Source of the DNA: Algiphilus aromaticivorans DG1253
Lineage (GTDB): Bacteria > Pseudomonadota > Gammaproteobacteria > Nevskiales > Nevskiaceae
Reading direction: 5' to 3'
Length of the DNA: 64,000 nt
NCBI RefSeq assembly: GCF_000733765.1
Contig: NZ_JPOG01000001.1
Coordinates: 2,790,001-2,854,000 of the forward strand
The notes under the pieces are model-generated. The model searched no databases and had not been told where the DNA came from. It saw nothing but the letters and a program-made list of their open reading frames with translations. Shown here in pieces: positions 54,762 to 64,000 of this stretch. How positions within the stretch are numbered: the stretch's first letter is position 1; each line of letters begins with the position of its first letter. The position numbers were made by a program, and so were the translations under genes.

Positions 54762-57700
54762 CAGCTCATCCCCGCGCCTGCGGGGAACACCTCTACGCCG
54801 AGCGCATCCACTACGACCCGGCCGGTTCATCCCCGCGCCTGCGGGGAACACTCAACATCGGCCACATCGTCGGCACGATCCTCCGGTTCATCCCCGCGCC
54901 TGCGGGGAACACCGAATAGACGACGCCGTCATCGTCGGTGGAGACGGTTCATCCCCGCGCCTGCGGGGAACACGCCGCACCGCCGAGGCTGTTTTCCAGC
55001 TGCACCGGTTCATCCCCGCGCCTGCGGGGAACACGAGCGCACGAAGGCCTTTCGCCGGCGAAAGGTCGGTTCATCCCCGCGCCTGCGGGGAACACACGGG
55101 CTCTGGCAAGAGCCTCATACTCGCCGACGGTTCATCCCCGCGCCTGCGGGGAACACCCGTGACGCAGGCCGCCAAGGGAGAGTTCGAGCGGTTCATCCCC
55201 GCGCCTGCGGGGAACACTGGCGGCTGCCGGTCGCGGGCCACAGCGCGATCGGTTCATCCCCGCGCCTGCGGGGAACACCCGTGACGCAGGCCGCCAAGGG
55301 AGAGTTCGAGCGGTTCATCCCCGCGCCTGCGGGGAACACTGGCGGCTGCCGGTCGCGGGCCACAGCGCGATCGGTTCATCCCCGCGCCTGCGGGGAACAC
55401 TCGCCCAGGCGCCGCCAGATGTCCGGCATAGCCGGTTCATCCCCGCGCCTGCGGGGAACACATGCCGCCGGACCCAATGGAGACGACGGGGCACGGTTCA
55501 TCCCCGCGCCTGCGGGGAACACTCAAGCCGCAGCAAAAGATAAAAGCTATTACCCGGTTCATCCCCGCGCCTGCGGGGAACACACGACACTAGCAACGTG
55601 CCCGTTTTGCGCCAGCGGTTCATCCCCGCGCCTGCGGGGAACACCCAGGCGGCGATACTCGGCGGCCAGGCGTGCGAGTTCGGTTCATCCCCGCGCCTGC
55701 GGGGAACACTGTAGTCGCGGCGCTCGGCGTGGTGGTCCTGGCGGTTCATCCCCGCGCCTGCGGGGAACACATCATTTCCGGGGGCCGGGGCGTCACCCAC
55801 GCCGGTTCATCCCCGCGCCTGCGGGGAACACCAGTACTGATCGCGGAAGCGATCGGCGAGCTGCGGTTCATCCCCGCGCCTGCGGGGAACACAGTTTTTC
55901 CAGCTGGTCGAGGAGCATCGCGTGCGGTTCATCCCCGCGCCTGCGGGGAACACTACGACCGAGATGACACAAATCGGCGAGGAATCGGTTCATCCCCGCG
56001 CCTGCGGGGAACACCTCGATGATGCGGGACCAATAGCCATCCTGGCCGGTTCATCCCCGCGCCTGCGGGGAACACGGCGTTGGCGTGGCCGGATTTGCGG
56101 CGGATGGCGGTTCATCCCCGCGCCTGCGGGGAACACGTGATCGACGAGGTTTCTTTGTACGCCGGGCTTCGGTTCATCCCCGCGCCTGCGGGGAACACGG
56201 CTGGGTCGAGGTCAGCCGCAGCCCCGATCCCGGTTCATCCCCGCGCCTGCGGGGAACACGGCTGTTCGCTGGACGATCCCAAGTCGGTGACCGGTTCATC
56301 CCCGCGCCTGCGGGGAACACGTCTACGGCGAGATCGCGCACATCATCGCTTACGGTTCATCCCCGCGCCTGCGGGGAACACACCTGGTCAGGCGTTCGGC
56401 CGTCGAGCGCGTCCGGTTCATCCCCGCGCCTGCGGGGAACACCCGGCCGAGGTCGTCGTCATGATTGATTCGGTCGGTTCATCCCCGCGCCTGCGGGGAA
56501 CACGCGTCAGGGTCATCGGTGACGTGGTGAGTGATCGGTTCATCCCCGCGCCTGCGGGGAACACCTCCTCCGGTGCGACACAGATTTTGCGTCGCTCGGT
56601 TCATCCCCGCGCCTGCGGGGAACACTCGATTCCAGCATCCACGACGTGGGCGGCGATCGGTTCATCCCCGCGCCTGCGGGGAACACGTGCGAGCCGTCGT
56701 TCTTCCGGACCTGGTGCGCGGTTCATCCCCGCGCCTGCGGGGAACACCAGGCACCAGGCCCGGAACAAATCCCAGATGTCGGTTCATCCCCGCGCCTGCG
56801 GGGAACACTCGGATTCCCGGTTACCGATATCGCCGACGCTCGGTTCATCCCCGCGCCTGCGGGGAACACGGTGAAGCGCGTGAGGCTGCCCGGGGTGCGG
56901 TCGGTTCATCCCCGCGCCTGCGGGGAACACGCCCTGCAGGCAGTTGAGCAGCACGAACAGGGCGGTTCATCCCCGCGCCTGCGGGGAACACTCGCGCGCG
57001 ACGATGGCCGCATCCAGGTTCTCCGGTTCATCCCCGCGCCTGCGGGGAACACCCGACGCCCTCGGGGATCATCGTCGGGTCGACCGGTTCATCCCCGCGC
57101 CTGCGGGGAACACGTCTGGACCCGCTGCTGCGCGAAACCGAGGTGCGGTTCATCCCCGCGCCTGCGGGGAACACGCGCGGCGCGGCTGGCGGCAACTAAA
57201 GCCGTCCGGTTCATCCCCGCGCCTGCGGGGAACACGACGACCGGCCGACGCCGTTCAACCACAACGACGGTTCATCCCCGCGCCTGCGGGGAACACTTCT
57301 GCGCCTCGCGCGTCAGCTGGTGCTTGGTCGGTTCATCCCCGCGCCTGCGGGGAACACATGGTGAACGCCCTGCGCGTTGCGGCGCAGCGCGGTTCATCCC
57401 CGCGCCTGCGGGGAACACGCGGCTGATGTCGCCCAGGGTCTGCTCGAAGGCGGTTCATCCCCGCGCCTGCGGGGAACACCCAACGCCATCGGGGATCATC
57501 GTCGGGTCGACCGGTTCATCCCCGCGCCTGCGGGGAACACACGAGTCAGACTACCCGCTGCAGGGCATCCGTCGGTTCATCCCCGCGCCTGCGGGGAACA
57601 CAAGATGCGCGTATCGCAGCGTCGTGCGGATATCGGTTCATCCCCGCGCCTGCGGGGAACACCCATCGACGCCCACCACCGGGACGATGCCGCCCGGTTC

Positions 57701-58455
57701 ATCCCCGCGCCTGCGGGGAACACAGACCCGCTCCCAGCCGAGGGGGGATCTCGCGCGGTTCATCCCCGCGCCTGCGGGGAACACGCCGAGCGGAAACTCG
57801 CGCGTAGCGCCGAAGGCGGTTCATCCCCGCGCCTGCGGGGAACACACCTGCCGGCTCCATTCCAGCTCGCACAGCGTCGGTTCATCCCCGCGCCTGCGGG
57901 GAACACATCCGGTTGCCGGCGATGATGTCGGGCCGGCACGGTTCATCCCCGCGCCTGCGGGGAACACCTGCGCAATAGCCTCGCGCCAGTCGGTCGGGCC
58001 GGTTCATCCCCGCGCCTGCGGGGAACACCAGGTGAAGGGCGAGATCAGCGTCATCGACAACGGTTCATCCCCGCGCCTGCGGGGAACACGCGCTGCTCAA
58101 GGACGTGCTGCCCGGCCAGACCGGTTCATCCCCGCGCCTGCGGGGAACACTGAAGCCCGCCTCGAGCGGGCTCCTCATTCTTCGGTTCATCCCCGCGCCT
58201 GCGGGGAACACCGGGTCGCGGCCTTCCAGGACCTGCATCAGCGCGGTTCATCCCCGCGCCTGCGGGGAACACCAGAAGGAAGTCTCCCGGATAAAGGCTG
58301 CGCGCGGTTCATCCCCGCGCCTGCGGGGAACACACGCCGACGGCGGTCGCTGCTGGCACGCCGGACGGTTCATCCCCGCGCCTGCGGGGAACACCTCGGC
58401 TTCCAGCTGCCCGCGACCCGCGACGGCGGTTCATCCCCGCGCCTGCGGGGAACAC
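54762..58455 (-). CRISPR. Type I-E CRISPR array, 61 repeats and 60 spacers
   Basis: 29-bp repeats beginning CGGTTCATCCCC and ending GGGGAACAC on the plus strand, with a CCCCGC/GCGGGG stem. The reverse strand gives the standard I-E form (GTGTTCCCCGC...), so transcription is leftward from the leader beside cas2. Spacers are 32 bp except one of 33 (56137-56169) and one of 36 (55645-55680). The leader-distal repeat (54762-54790) has two mismatches, as expected for the old end; the others appear identical. Spacers 55157-55188/55218-55249 are repeated exactly at 55279-55310/55340-55371. Confidence 0.99.
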
Positions 58456-58549
58456 TCTTCGCGTAACCGCCTGATCCATAAGGGCAGAAACTTGAAGGAA
58501 AATTCTACCGGCGATTTAGGCGACGTGCCGCCGGCAAGTATCCGGGTTG
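58456..58549 (-). promoter_or_regulatory. CRISPR leader
   Basis: 94 bp between cas2 and the first repeat. It is AT-richer than its surroundings (TAGAATTTTCC on the transcribed strand) and should contain the array promoter and integration signals. No confident -35 could be placed. Confidence 0.7.
58464..58476 (-). promoter_or_regulatory. IHF-like site in the leader
   Basis: GATCAGGCGGTTA on the leftward strand, 8 bp from the first repeat. It matches WATCAANNNNTTR at all but two positions, and IHF binds at this place in the E. coli I-E leader to direct Cas1-Cas2. Weak match, strong position. Confidence 0.35.
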
Positions 58550-59789
<1,240 letters not shown>

Positions 59790-59790
<1 letters not shown>

Positions 59791-60320
59791 CACAGCTCTC
59801 CGCAGATACGCAGCGTTTCACGGACCAGCGCGGTCCCCAGGAAGTAACCGCTCCCGCGCAGCTTGCGGACTATCGGAGCCACCTCGTCCAGCGAGCCGTG
59901 TCGTTTGGCCATTACGAGCACCCCCAATGTCCCGATCACGAGCACTTCGCAGTTGCGCGCGATTGATCTCGCCGCACGGTCATCCATCAATACCCATGCA
60001 TCGCGCCGCAGCGCGACGCTGATAGCGGCACGCTCGCCCGCACCTAGCGGGAGGTCGGCCAGCCAAGGGTGCGTAGCGCTGGCGCATAGGCTGAAAGCAG
60101 CCTCCGTCTTGATGGCCTTGCGCAATGCTTTCGCGTCTTCGCGCGAAGGATGGTGCTGGCTCTCCTTCCAGACCACGCGCGGCACGAGGACTTGACCAAA
60201 ACCGTTCGCCAACCACGCAAGCCCGTCGACCCGGGCAAGCGCCAGCAACGGCCCGGTGTCGGCAACAAGCAGCCGCTCAGTCGAGGCCAAGCCCCGTGAG
60301 CTCCTCGCGCAACTCGTCAA
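59790..60320 (-). CDS. DUF3368 / PIN-domain protein (putative toxin) within the cas operon
   Basis: 176 residues at most. PIN-fold DUF3368 pattern: VADTGPLLALARVDGL (Asp), RVVWKES (Glu), GAGERAAISVAL, LMDDRAARSIARN (Asp pair), and VIGTLGVLVMAKRHGSL. PIN proteins paired with UPF0175-type antitoxins act as VapC-like ribonucleases. All expected acidic residues are present, so it may be active. Its start is uncertain: the ATG at 60320 overlaps the antitoxin by 44 bp; a CTG just before LLVADTG is an alternative. Its stop overlaps cas1, so the two are translationally coupled. Confidence 0.85.
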
Positions 60321-60606
60321 CCGGGTAACCGGCTGCCGGTACGCGATGCCGAGCCATAAGATCCAGGAAATCGCTGCGGCTCATGCCGGCCAGCTCGGCG
60401 GCCACGCCTTGGCTGATGGTTCCGTCCCGGACAAGCTGCAAAGCAAGAGCCGTCCTGACGCCACCGGTAAGCAGACTCTCACTGAAGGGCACGGCGACAA
60501 AGAGCGGATTGCCCCGCTTGGATACCAGCGAGAGTTTGCCGGCTTCGGCGCCGCGCACCAGCTCACCGGTGCGCTCGCGTAAATCACGGATCGTGAAGTT
60601 TTCCAT
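60277..60606 (-). CDS. Phd/UPF0175-type antitoxin within the cas operon
   Basis: 109 residues. The N-terminal half (FTIRDLRERTGELVRGAEAG) resembles Phd/YefM DNA-binding antitoxins; the C-terminal half (DGTISQGVAAELAGMSRSDF and PVDELREEL) is UPF0175, the usual partner of DUF3368 PIN proteins. So it appears to be a fusion of two antitoxin modules. ATG at 60606 has GAGG nine bases upstream. Lies 44 bp after cas6e, preceded by an inverted repeat that could be its operator. Confidence 0.82.
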   Translation of the reverse strand: MENFTIRDLRERTGELVRGAEAGKLSLVSKRGNPLFVAVPFSESLLTGGVRTALALQLVRDGTISQGVAAELAGMSRSDFLDLMARHRVPAAGYPVDELREELTGLGLD

Positions 60607-60624
60607 GTGCTTGTGCCTCAGCAT

Positions 60625-60650: not shown

Positions 60651-61352
60651 TCAGGCCGGGCGCACCAGCAACAGGCCACAACCGAACGCTTTCGCGTGGC
60701 CGATACCCTGCAGAAGCGCCATCCGGAATCGCTCTACATCCTGCACTTCAAGCTCTCCTGAGAAATCCACCGTGCTGAGCTGAATGGCTTTACCGTTGGC
60801 CCGCTTTGGGGCTTTCTCAGCCACCCGGTTGTAGTTGTCTACGCGCAGACTGCCATCGATCACCGCGAATCCCGCCTGCTGGGCGCGACTACGCAACCAC
60901 TGCCCGCAGACATTCGTGACCAGCTCATACAGTGGCGGCTTGTCCTCGTCGACCCAATCCTTCCAGCGTGCAAGTCCGCGCGCATCCAGCATCTCGCGCT
61001 TGGCGTGCATAACGACATCATCGCGGCGCGACTTGCCCTCGCGTTTATGCGTAACAACGGGATTCGCACGCAGCTCGAAACGAAGGCATGCGCCCTCCGC
61101 CACTTTCGGGTCGTACTCGCGCGACTGCACGTCCCAGCCGTCCATCGCGGGCGAAGGCCGGCGCGCGGAAACCACGTGATAACGGGGCATGCCATCGACA
61201 TCAGAGCTGCGGAACAGGAAATCGCGCGGCGTGCCTTCCGGCGCTTCGAAGAATTGCCACAGCCATTGATGCTCGCGGTAGGGCCCTGTCGCGCGACTTG
61301 CCGCGGCATCGCGCTCGCGGCCCGGCTTTGGCGTGATCATACTGAAGTACAT
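60651..61352 (-). CDS. cas6e: CRISPR RNA endonuclease Cas6e
   Basis: 233 residues. REHQWLWQFF holds the catalytic His; the tail GIGHAKAFGCGLLLV is the Gly-rich loop of Cas6. Cleaves the pre-crRNA repeat hairpin and stays in Cascade. Start at 61352, one base after the cas5 stop. Confidence 0.95.
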   Translation of the reverse strand: MYFSMITPKPGRERDAAASRATGPYREHQWLWQFFEAPEGTPRDFLFRSSDVDGMPRYHVVSARRPSPAMDGWDVQSREYDPKVAEGACLRFELRANPVVTHKREGKSRRDDVVMHAKREMLDARGLARWKDWVDEDKPPLYELVTNVCGQWLRSRAQQAGFAVIDGSLRVDNYNRVAEKAPKRANGKAIQLSTVDFSGELEVQDVERFRMALLQGIGHAKAFGCGLLLVRPA

Positions 61353-61353
61353 T

Positions 61354-62115
61354 TCAGCCCTCCGCTTCCAGAAAGGCGACATGCTCCACTCGATCGCCAA
61401 ATTGCCATTTCCCGCGTGAGATGAGCCGGTCCTTGCGCATTGCCGTCAGGCTGGATTCGTCGACGCCAGCGTCAATGCTCTCGTCCCAGACGAGCCGTGA
61501 CAGAGCGGGCAAAGCTTCCACTGGTGCATTGCCCCAGCGATCACGATTCGCTTCTCGCGCTTGGTCATGCTCTGCGGCGTATCCCGTGAAGGCTTCCATC
61601 GCCGAATCAGCCTGCAGCACCCTGGGGCACAGCGGAGCGTCGAGCGGACAGGATTTGCGGCCGAGATACAGCACGAACCGAGGTTGCGCTAGCGCGCTGC
61701 TCAGCTGATCCAGGGAATACGGCGCCTCGGCCTTCTCCTGAAGGGCGACCAACCAGCCGGCATTCTCGCGATAGTCGCGTTTGGAGATGATCGTGGTGAG
61801 CGCCGTTCGCGCGTGGGCGAGTTCATCGCGCCGTGTCGCATGAGGGCGCCCCTTCATCCGGGATTGGCTAGGCATCTGCACCGTGTGGTAATCGCGCATC
61901 AGTGTCCCGGTGGACAGGACACCGATCGCCAATCCGTAACCCTGCGCCAATCGATGGTGCTCAGCCTCCTGTTCGCGGCGAAGGCCAAGCGCAGCAGCCA
62001 GGAGTCCGAATACGCCGGATGCGCTGGGATAGATATCCGTACCGCGATAGTCGCCTACAGCCGTAGCACCCCAGGCGGCCAGCGACCCCTGCAGTTGGAA
62101 AACAAGGAAGGCCAT
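61354..62115 (-). CDS. cas5e: Cascade subunit Cas5e
   Basis: 253 residues. FLVFQLQGSLAAWG start and SASGVFGLLAAALGLRRE (the Gly-rich segment of Cas5). Caps the 5' handle of crRNA. ATG lies four bp after the cas7 stop. Confidence 0.95.
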   Translation of the reverse strand: MAFLVFQLQGSLAAWGATAVGDYRGTDIYPSASGVFGLLAAALGLRREQEAEHHRLAQGYGLAIGVLSTGTLMRDYHTVQMPSQSRMKGRPHATRRDELAHARTALTTIISKRDYRENAGWLVALQEKAEAPYSLDQLSSALAQPRFVLYLGRKSCPLDAPLCPRVLQADSAMEAFTGYAAEHDQAREANRDRWGNAPVEALPALSRLVWDESIDAGVDESSLTAMRKDRLISRGKWQFGDRVEHVAFLEAEG

Positions 62116-62119
62116 GGCT

Positions 62120-63238
62120 TCAGCACCGCGCGACGAAGTCGACAAGCTCCTGCAGCGACCCCTCGCCACGCTCGACGTTCATGACGCGGTGTTCTTCCGC
62201 ACAGCTGCCATAAACCTTGTCGAAATTGTCGCGACGGGTCTCCAGTGCCTGGACCGCGAGATCGAAGGTCCCTTTCTCTTCATTCCCGCGCACCGGCTTA
62301 AGGAAGGCCTGTGACAGTGACCGCGGCTGCTGGTCCCCGCACTCCGCCATGACATAGCTCGCATAGGCGCGGGAGGCATAGCTGTTCTGCATGCCGGTCG
62401 GCGAGATCTTGGTGACGGCGTGGAGCAAGGCTTGTAGCGCTTTCTCGGTGAGCGCATCGTCGCCATCCAGGTTTTCCGCCAGAAGCTCGCGATTGATGCA
62501 CAGATAGAGGTAGAAGACGCCGGCACCATAGCCCCGCTCGCCAATATGACCGGCCCCCTTGTCCTCCAGCCCCTCGTTGAGGTCATCCACGGCGCTGAAG
62601 TAATCATCCTCCACCGCGCTCTTGTGGACGGTGAAGGCGTGTGCCACCTGCACCGCAGCGTCCATGTTGTGAGATGGCTCATCAGCCAGCATGCGGCCGA
62701 ACATGGCGATGTCGACGGCGTGCTGCGGCCGGCGCAGGAGCTTCAGCTCATCATCGCTTGGCGCACTGCCACGCCCGGCGCAGGATTTCACGAGCGCGTC
62801 GATCGCATCGCGCTCGCCCGGGCTGACATGGGCGAGCTGCTCGATCTCGAGATCGTTCTGTGGATTCTCCTTGGACTCCTTCTTGCGCTTGCCGAAGCGT
62901 TCGGCAATCTTTTGCGCCCAGGCATGCGCATCCTTTTCCGATACGCCACGCTCCACGAGCGCCTCGTAGACGCGGATGCCCGCTTCTTTGGTGCGTGTGC
63001 CCAGCACGGTGGACACCTTGCCCCAGCGAACCACCGGCTCGCCCGCCGGATATGCCGATGCACCAAGCGCCTCACCGAAGACCTCTGAGGTGCGCCAGGC
63101 GCGCTTCAGGCTCTGGGAAGAAATGCGCAGACGCAATGCATCGCCGACCAGGGCGGTCTTCGGCCGACCGGTATCGTCGCGGTTGAGATTGGATGGCGGG
63201 TATTGCGTAAGGATATGCAACTGAATAAAGCGAGACAT
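62120..63238 (-). CDS. cas7e: Cascade backbone subunit Cas7e
   Basis: 372 residues. Starts FIQLHILTQYPPSNLNRDD and continues LRISSQSLKRAWRTS, diagnostic for Cas7e/CasC; six copies coat the crRNA spacer. GGGAGAAG upstream of the ATG. Confidence 0.97.
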   Translation of the reverse strand: MSRFIQLHILTQYPPSNLNRDDTGRPKTALVGDALRLRISSQSLKRAWRTSEVFGEALGASAYPAGEPVVRWGKVSTVLGTRTKEAGIRVYEALVERGVSEKDAHAWAQKIAERFGKRKKESKENPQNDLEIEQLAHVSPGERDAIDALVKSCAGRGSAPSDDELKLLRRPQHAVDIAMFGRMLADEPSHNMDAAVQVAHAFTVHKSAVEDDYFSAVDDLNEGLEDKGAGHIGERGYGAGVFYLYLCINRELLAENLDGDDALTEKALQALLHAVTKISPTGMQNSYASRAYASYVMAECGDQQPRSLSQAFLKPVRGNEEKGTFDLAVQALETRRDNFDKVYGSCAEEHRVMNVERGEGSLQELVDFVARC

Positions 63239-63289: not shown

Positions 63290-63784
63290 CTACTCGGGCC
63301 AGTGGTAGCCGTAGGCCCAGGCCTTCCTGACGCCATCTCCCCAGAACAGAAGATCGTGGGCGAGGGCGATGACGTTCATCTTGTGATCAGTAAGCGGCAG
63401 GGCTCGACGCAGGCCGATGAAAAGGCTGTCGATATCCGGTGATTCCAGCAAGCGGACGAAGCGCAGCTTGCTGACGGCGGGTTGGTCATCACCGGCTGCA
63501 CGCACGCTGAGGCGTTCGGGGACGCTGTCTCCGGGGCTATCGAATTTGACATGCGCAAGCAAACCGACTGCCGCCGCCAGCCGATCTCGCGAATGCACTG
63601 AACCGAATGACTCGTCGTAGTCCAGCAGACGGCGATAGCAGCGCTGATAGGGTGCGCTGATGCTGACCGCAGTGATGTCTGGCGCGCGCCGGAGAATCGC
63701 GCGATCCGCACGCCTATCGTCCAGCTCCTGCCACCATTCGAGTAGCGCCGCTCCGGCACCGTATTCACGCTTGAGACTTTTCAT
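63290..63784 (-). CDS. cse2: Cascade small subunit Cas11e (Cse2/CasB)
   Basis: 164 residues, mostly helical: LLEWWQELDDRRADRAILRR at the start and AHDLLFWGDGVRKAWAYGYH at the end, the Cse2 pattern. Dimer that stabilises the target strand. ATG at 63784 is 10 bp after the cas8e stop, with a G-rich ribosome site; longer frames were discarded. Confidence 0.95.
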   Translation of the reverse strand: MKSLKREYGAGAALLEWWQELDDRRADRAILRRAPDITAVSISAPYQRCYRRLLDYDESFGSVHSRDRLAAAVGLLAHVKFDSPGDSVPERLSVRAAGDDQPAVSKLRFVRLLESPDIDSLFIGLRRALPLTDHKMNVIALAHDLLFWGDGVRKAWAYGYHWPE

Positions 63785-63794
63785 CCCTTCCCCC

Positions 63795-64000
63795 TCAGGC
63801 CGATGCGGACTCATGTTCTTGATAGGGGGCCTTGTCAGGCCCGGCGTCATTCTTCGGCAGCGCCAGGGCATCGCGCAGCTTGCGCCCATGAAGGCTCTGA
63901 CGAAGACGTCGGTACGCGGCCGCCACGCGTTGTGGGTGCTGGCGCTCGACAGCACCCGCGCCGACAAAGCACTCATCGAACAGCGATGTGGCGGCATGCA
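63795..64000 (-). CDS. cse1: Cascade large subunit Cas8e (Cse1/CasA), C-terminal end
   Basis: Last 68 codons and the stop; the rest lies beyond the right edge. AATSLFDECFVGAG and AAYRRLRQSLHG fit the C-terminal four-helix bundle of Cse1. Identified mainly by its place before cse2. Confidence 0.85.
   Translation of the reverse strand, partial: HAATSLFDECFVGAGAVERQHPQRVAAAYRRLRQSLHGRKLRDALALPKNDAGPDKAPYQEHESASA

Follow-up and report, generated by a model that had tools for sequence, protein, structure and literature searches.

In type I-E CRISPR systems, Cas1-Cas2 cuts at the PAM during capture, and a common PAM therefore fixes both ends of the captured piece and gives an identical 32-nt register and orientation. 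Phage mini-arrays were reportedly proposed by Shmakov et al., in NAR in 2023, to inhibit effector expression. CreR is described as a cas-regulating RNA of type I-E (Liu et al. 2023, cited in PMC13131331; reviewed in PMC12737573). RNA anti-CRISPRs made of a lone repeat are known, type I-E included (Camara-Wilpert et al. 2023, PMC10651486), and the SRUFinder rules for them ask for at least 90% repeat identity and no second repeat nearby (PMC10651486). Furthermore, self-targeting that is tolerated via anti-CRISPRs has been described in Xanthomonas albilineans (PMC10810201).

The locus studied here lies in and next to a 64,000-nt stretch of DNA (the window). Compared with repeated type I-E acquisition of a single protospacer from a group of related phages, it has the same PAM-set boundaries, strand, and coding divergence, and it differs in nothing except that a third allele sits in the host's own prophage. 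As in the X. albilineans case, several exact, PAM-flanked self-targets occur beside a complete cas set; here, in contrast, the system is type I-E, with an Aca10-linked operon of orphan genes plus an RNA as candidate inhibitors. A mini-array of the host resembles CreR in having a 32-nt guide, set between two repeat-like hairpins, beside cas8e, as well as a PAM and a partial match at a putative cas promoter; the host copy fits CreR, but a second copy sits in the prophage. That prophage element is like a Racr or solitary repeat unit in that it is an intergenic prophage mimic of the host I-E repeat beside acr-like genes, and unlike one in that the repeat is followed by a copy of the host CreR guide and then by a further hairpin. 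With the mini-arrays of Shmakov et al. it shares being a phage mini-array predicted to silence cas genes; what differs is that the mimic, the host CreR, the target promoter, and the tolerated self-targets are all found in one genome.

A type I-E array with two near-identical spacers

The array has 61 repeats and 60 spacers (Table 1). Its repeat is 29 nt long and reads GTGTTCCCCGCAGGCGCGGGGATGAACCG on the minus strand, its spacers are 32 nt, its PAM is AAG, and all eight I-E cas genes (cas1, cas2, cas3, cas8e, cse2, cas5, cas6, and cas7) are full length, which together place the system in type I-E. Given the reading of the repeat, the position of the degenerate end (54762), and cas2 adjoining the right end, we placed the leader at the right end of the array and counted spacers from there. 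Elsewhere in the array, a two-spacer block is exactly duplicated in tandem (spacers 51 to 54, window 55157-55371), and there are spacers of atypical length, 36 nt (window 55645-55680) and 33 nt (56137-56169).

Spacers 16 and 23, each 32 nt long, agree at 30 of 32 positions and differ at spacer positions 24 and 30 only; on the crRNA strand, they read GTCGACCCGACGATGATCCCCGA[G/T]GGCGT[C/T]GG. Apart from the exact tandem duplicates 51/53 and 52/54, no other pair in the set of 60 has over 20 matches, and an identity of 30/32 in a common register cannot be chance. The original prediction had described these two spacers, their two differences, and a shared open frame, VDPTMIP(E/D)GVG, and each of these was confirmed; the frame is that of a genuine gene and covers residues 42 to 52 of a 99-aa prophage protein. 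Both differences also fall, as had been claimed, at third codon positions (which for this pair alone would happen by chance in 9% of cases), and GTC/GTT is silent, but GAG/GAT changes E to D.

TABLE 1 Features of the array, the cas region, and the prophage (window positions unless prefixed)
Feature	Coordinates	Strand	Remarks
Type I-E CRISPR array	54762..58455	-	crRNA strand minus; leader end right; degenerate terminal repeat 54762-54790
Leader side, between first repeat and cas2	58456..58549	-	assigned by position and orientation
Spacer 7	58029..58060	-	prophage RecE-like exonuclease gene, 2 mismatches, AAG PAM
Spacer 13	57663..57694	-	prophage RecT/Bet gene, exact, AAG PAM
Spacer 15	57541..57572	-	prophage major head gene, 3 mismatches (all silent), GAT at PAM place
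Spacer 16 (newer allele B)	57480..57511	-	prophage gene 37, 4 mismatches (3, 9, 24, 30), AAG PAM
Spacer 18	57358..57389	-	prophage virion structural gene, exact, AAG PAM
Spacer 20	57236..57267	-	prophage portal gene, one mismatch (15), AAG PAM
Spacer 23 (older allele A)	57053..57084	-	prophage gene 37, 2 mismatches (3, 9), AAG PAM
Spacer 24	56992..57023	-	prophage terminase gene, mismatches at 6, 12, 18 only, AAG PAM
Spacer 25	56931..56962	-	prophage endolysin gene, exact, AAG PAM
Spacer 27	56809..56840	-	prophage gene 47 (anti-CRISPR candidate), exact, CAG PAM
Spacer 37	56199..56230	-	prophage portal gene, exact, AAG PAM
cas2e	58550..58864	-	TIGR01873
cas1e	58861..59793	-	TIGR03638
cas6e	60651..61400	-	TIGR01907
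cas5e	61354..62169	-	TIGR01868
cas7e	62120..63238	-	TIGR01869
cse2 (cas11e)	63290..63997	-	TIGR02548
cas8e	L011:5795-7432, just past window	-	TIGR02547
cas3	L011:7731-10580, past window	-	cas3 models
Host CreR-like mini-array	L011:7633-7721		between cas3 and cas8e, just right of window
Host mini-array including target	L011:7589-7721 = G000:C1:2855589-2855721
AAG-flanked target of CreR-like guide	L011:7592-7623
Third allele	G000:C1:1996868-1996899		in prophage gene 37
Bounding repeats of prophage	1962347 and 2022587		16 bp
Small-gene operon of prophage	G000:C1:2001527-2002834 (L007:14527-15834)		candidate acr-aca locus
Prophage mini-array	G000:C1:2002252-2002334 (L007:15252-15334)	-	between two small genes
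CRISPR-repeat mimic in prophage	G000:C1:2002306-2002334	-	25/29 matches

Prophage targets and the origin of the spacer pair

The original prediction had named its own check, namely, a search with the peptide and both spacers and a look at the flanking PAM. When the host genome was searched for the VDPTMIP(E/D)GVG pattern, it returned both spacers and a third place, the small gene 37 in the structural region of a resident prophage, where the frame of this 99-aa gene reads VDPTMIPEGVG and an AAG PAM is present. The prophage, whose genes were called with a simple script, is 60 kb long, and the first of its bounding repeats is the 3' end of tRNA-Leu(CAG). It carries integrase, repressor, RecT, RecE-like, endolysin, terminase, portal, and head genes, and its portal is closest to the portals of ~60-kb podoviruses (37 to 43% identity). 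Near one prophage end there is also a lone open frame of 4731 codons (G000:C1:1962748-1976943, minus).

The IMG/VR contig that matches the site is the host's own prophage. Besides this prophage, spacer Blast and motif scans turned up no close homologue among phages, IMG/VR, and GTDB contigs, and none of the collections searched yielded a source phage or prophage that carries allele A or B. Loose motif matches (L028-L042) were rejected as different proteins or different frames. With tblastn, gene 37 has distant relatives of its N-terminal half alone, in Pseudomonas/Stenotrophomonas phages, at about 47% identity.

In total, 11 spacers match the prophage, 5 of them exactly (4 of those 5 with AAG), and AAG stands at 8 of 10 prophage sites. 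Array positions 13 to 27 contain 9 of the 11, so the host met this phage family mostly during one stretch of the array's history. Mismatches occur in 6 of the 11 spacers, and 12 of the 13 distinct differences fall at third codon positions (binomial p=1.7e-5); 11 of the 13 are silent. Strand runs of the prophage-matching spacers, examined for priming, were not significant. When all distinct spacers were compared with the genome by Blast, no convincing self-match appeared outside the prophage, and a plasmid match of spacer 11 was rejected (6 mismatches, without AAG). At the spacer 15 site (G000:C1:1988826), GAT replaces AAG and there are three silent differences; this is possibly an escaped site.

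We consider it about 90% probable, from comparison of the three alleles and the array, that spacers 16 and 23 are separate captures of one AAG-flanked site from diverged variants of one phage gene. The internal repeats carry no change in 59 copies (0/1711 repeat positions), against 2 changes in the 32 nt of the spacer pair (Fisher p=3.3e-4), and this lack of drift, together with the clustering of differences at third codon positions, indicates that the spacers were captured from diverged relatives of the prophage. Independent captures from homologous phage genes, at one site and in one orientation, were what the original prediction had proposed, and the third allele with its AAG, the third-codon bias, and the mutation-free array all agree with it. 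Its further idea of a preferred protospacer or PAM is supported as regards the PAM, and a preferred protospacer is not needed: with 1334 AAG sites in the prophage, one repeated site would arise by chance in 4 to 13% of cases for 11 to 20 captures and in 74% for 60.

Duplication of one spacer unit within the array, followed by two point mutations, is very improbable. Duplication does happen in this array, as the exact tandem copy of block 51-52 in 53-54 demonstrates, but spacers 16 and 23 are separated by six unrelated spacers, a distance of seven units, which is unlike the tandem copy. Moreover, no other unit of the array has mutated, and the third-codon differences to the prophage, in the pair as in other spacers, would not result from mutation in an array. 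Drift is disfavored because it ignores codons, because the duplicated spacers 51 to 54 are unchanged, and because the old spacers 25, 27, and 37 are still exact. That a sequencing or assembly error split one spacer into two versions can practically be dismissed; just two bases differ, but the two copies have different neighbors, the changes both hit third positions of codons, and the genome assembly, in 2 contigs, is close to complete (98.9%). A variant of the favored explanation, in which a single outbreak of a mixed phage population supplied both alleles instead of two encounters, would fit the clustering of the family's captures, but we consider it rather unlikely given the six other spacers between the pair and the unequal amounts by which the neighbors differ from the prophage.

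With separate captures, spacer 23 would have been taken first from one member of the family and spacer 16 later from another that had changed at two more wobble positions; when and in which direction the captures went is read from array order only. Cascade flips out every sixth base (PMC5904413). Both 24 and 30 are multiples of six, so these positions are flipped out and the guides of spacers 16 and 23 should be equivalent. The mismatches of spacer 24 to the prophage are likewise at flipped-out positions, a coincidence that is suggestive only, since half of the third codon positions are multiples of six. If the guides are equivalent, allele A should already guard against allele B, and capture of the site again would mean that protection had failed. 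Thus, the re-capture suggests that the phage family persisted despite the first memory. The spacer pair itself is ordinary recurrent immunity, well documented by three alleles.

A CreR-like mini-array beside cas8e and a related element in the prophage

In the mini-array between cas3 and cas8e, repeat-like units of 28 nt (first) and 29 nt (last) flank a guide of 32 nt. This guide, TGGAATGGTTCGCTGC..., matches AAG-TGGAAAGGTTCTCTG (L011:7589-7606) over 15 nt except at positions 6 and 12; the runner-up among 2681 AAG sites in 120 kb matches over 6 nt, and the 18-nt target pattern has a single occurrence in the genome. The target adjoins TTGACA on the cas8e strand. A consensus scan called no promoter at the target, and a cas8e promoter there is a guess. 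By its make-up, the mini-array is a putative CreR-like autorepressor, and it is predicted to repress cas transcription.

The prophage mini-array begins with the repeat mimic, whose 25 of 29 matches compare with at most 23 in 1000 shuffled hairpins. The bases that follow, TGGAACGGTTCGCTGC, agree with the host CreR guide at 15 of 16 positions and deviate at position 6 only; a match of this quality at a fixed place has a chance of 1e-8. From position 17 onward, the prophage guide is unrelated to the host CreR guide. A second hairpin, TTCCCC...GGGGAT, lies 33 nt downstream of the repeat mimic and scores as a terminator too. Among 85 genomes of the order, the repeat-end-plus-guide pattern was found at two places, the host CreR and the prophage, in one genome; in IMG/VR, it was found in this prophage only. 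As an intergenic repeat mimic in a mobile element, the prophage element resembles Racr and solitary repeats, and with 86% identity and a second hairpin nearby, it falls outside the SRUFinder rules. It is more than a lone repeat, since what comes after the repeat mimic is a guide equal to that of the host CreR and then another hairpin. A "solitary" repeat in a relative (G036) was rejected since it belongs to an array.

The small-gene operon of the prophage contains two orphan genes, a DUF1456 gene, and an Aca10-like gene. The Aca10-like protein (75 aa) is homologous (E=7.7e-12) to PDB 7XI5, identified as Aca10 from PMC9410881. The operon promoter, TTGACC-17-TATAGT, comes with a 7-bp inverted repeat, of a kind that occurs 19 times per 100 kb, and the first gene of the operon is the target of spacer 27. 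The genes next to the Aca10-like gene match no known Acr, AcrIE or other, and modeled structures of the two acr candidates were too low in quality to be of use. We regard the operon as a candidate acr-aca locus. Directly downstream of the acr-like promoter, L007:14546-14606 (GGAACCGTGGATAGGG...TTCCCCGGGACCGGGGA) resembles a crRNA handle followed by a guide and a hairpin, which may be chance.

How the self-targets may be tolerated

Spacers 13, 18, 25, and 37 match the resident prophage exactly and with AAG, beside a complete cas set. We infer that the phage family would keep infecting, and that one member would have lysogenised the host despite at least four exact AAG targets, because the phage blocks the system. 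The likeliest blockers would be a phage RNA that copies the CreR guide and protein inhibitors from the operon of the Aca10-like repressor. The crRNA-like RNA of the prophage would load into Cascade, direct it to the cas8e promoter, and silence cas; the processed RNAs would begin AUGAACCG for CreR and AUGAUCCG for the prophage mini-array. As far as sequence comparison goes, the best reading of the prophage locus is an anti-CRISPR locus with a predicted CreR-mimicking RNA. We put at slightly better than even odds both the part played by such blockers and the idea that this RNA would be a working mimic of the host CreR, acting as an RNA anti-CRISPR.

Alternatively, protein anti-CRISPRs by themselves or a cas operon that is not expressed could account for the tolerance, with the mini-array as a decoy repeat (Racr) or an inert relic. 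The presence of an Aca10-like gene among the orphan small genes of one operon is consistent with this, as are the known lone-repeat RNA decoys, found for type I-E too (PMC10651486), and we take it as a serious possibility at less than even odds. However, a decoy requires the repeat alone, so the 15 of 16 bases shared with the host CreR guide are left unexplained, as is the location of that guide's sole AAG-flanked genome target at the putative cas8e promoter. Should the predicted CreR mimic be functional, then a phage can overcome type I-E immunity with a copy of some 16 nt of the autorepressor guide of its host. To our knowledge, phage copying of the CreR guide has so far been predicted only; our search covered openly licensed papers and may have missed a published case. 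CRISPR memory, prophage target, and candidate RNA off-switch are united in one genome and are jointly testable.

The cas operon itself also contains a toxin-antitoxin-like pair, a DUF3368 protein and a Phd-family antitoxin, in the gap between cas6e and cas1 (59790-60624, minus).
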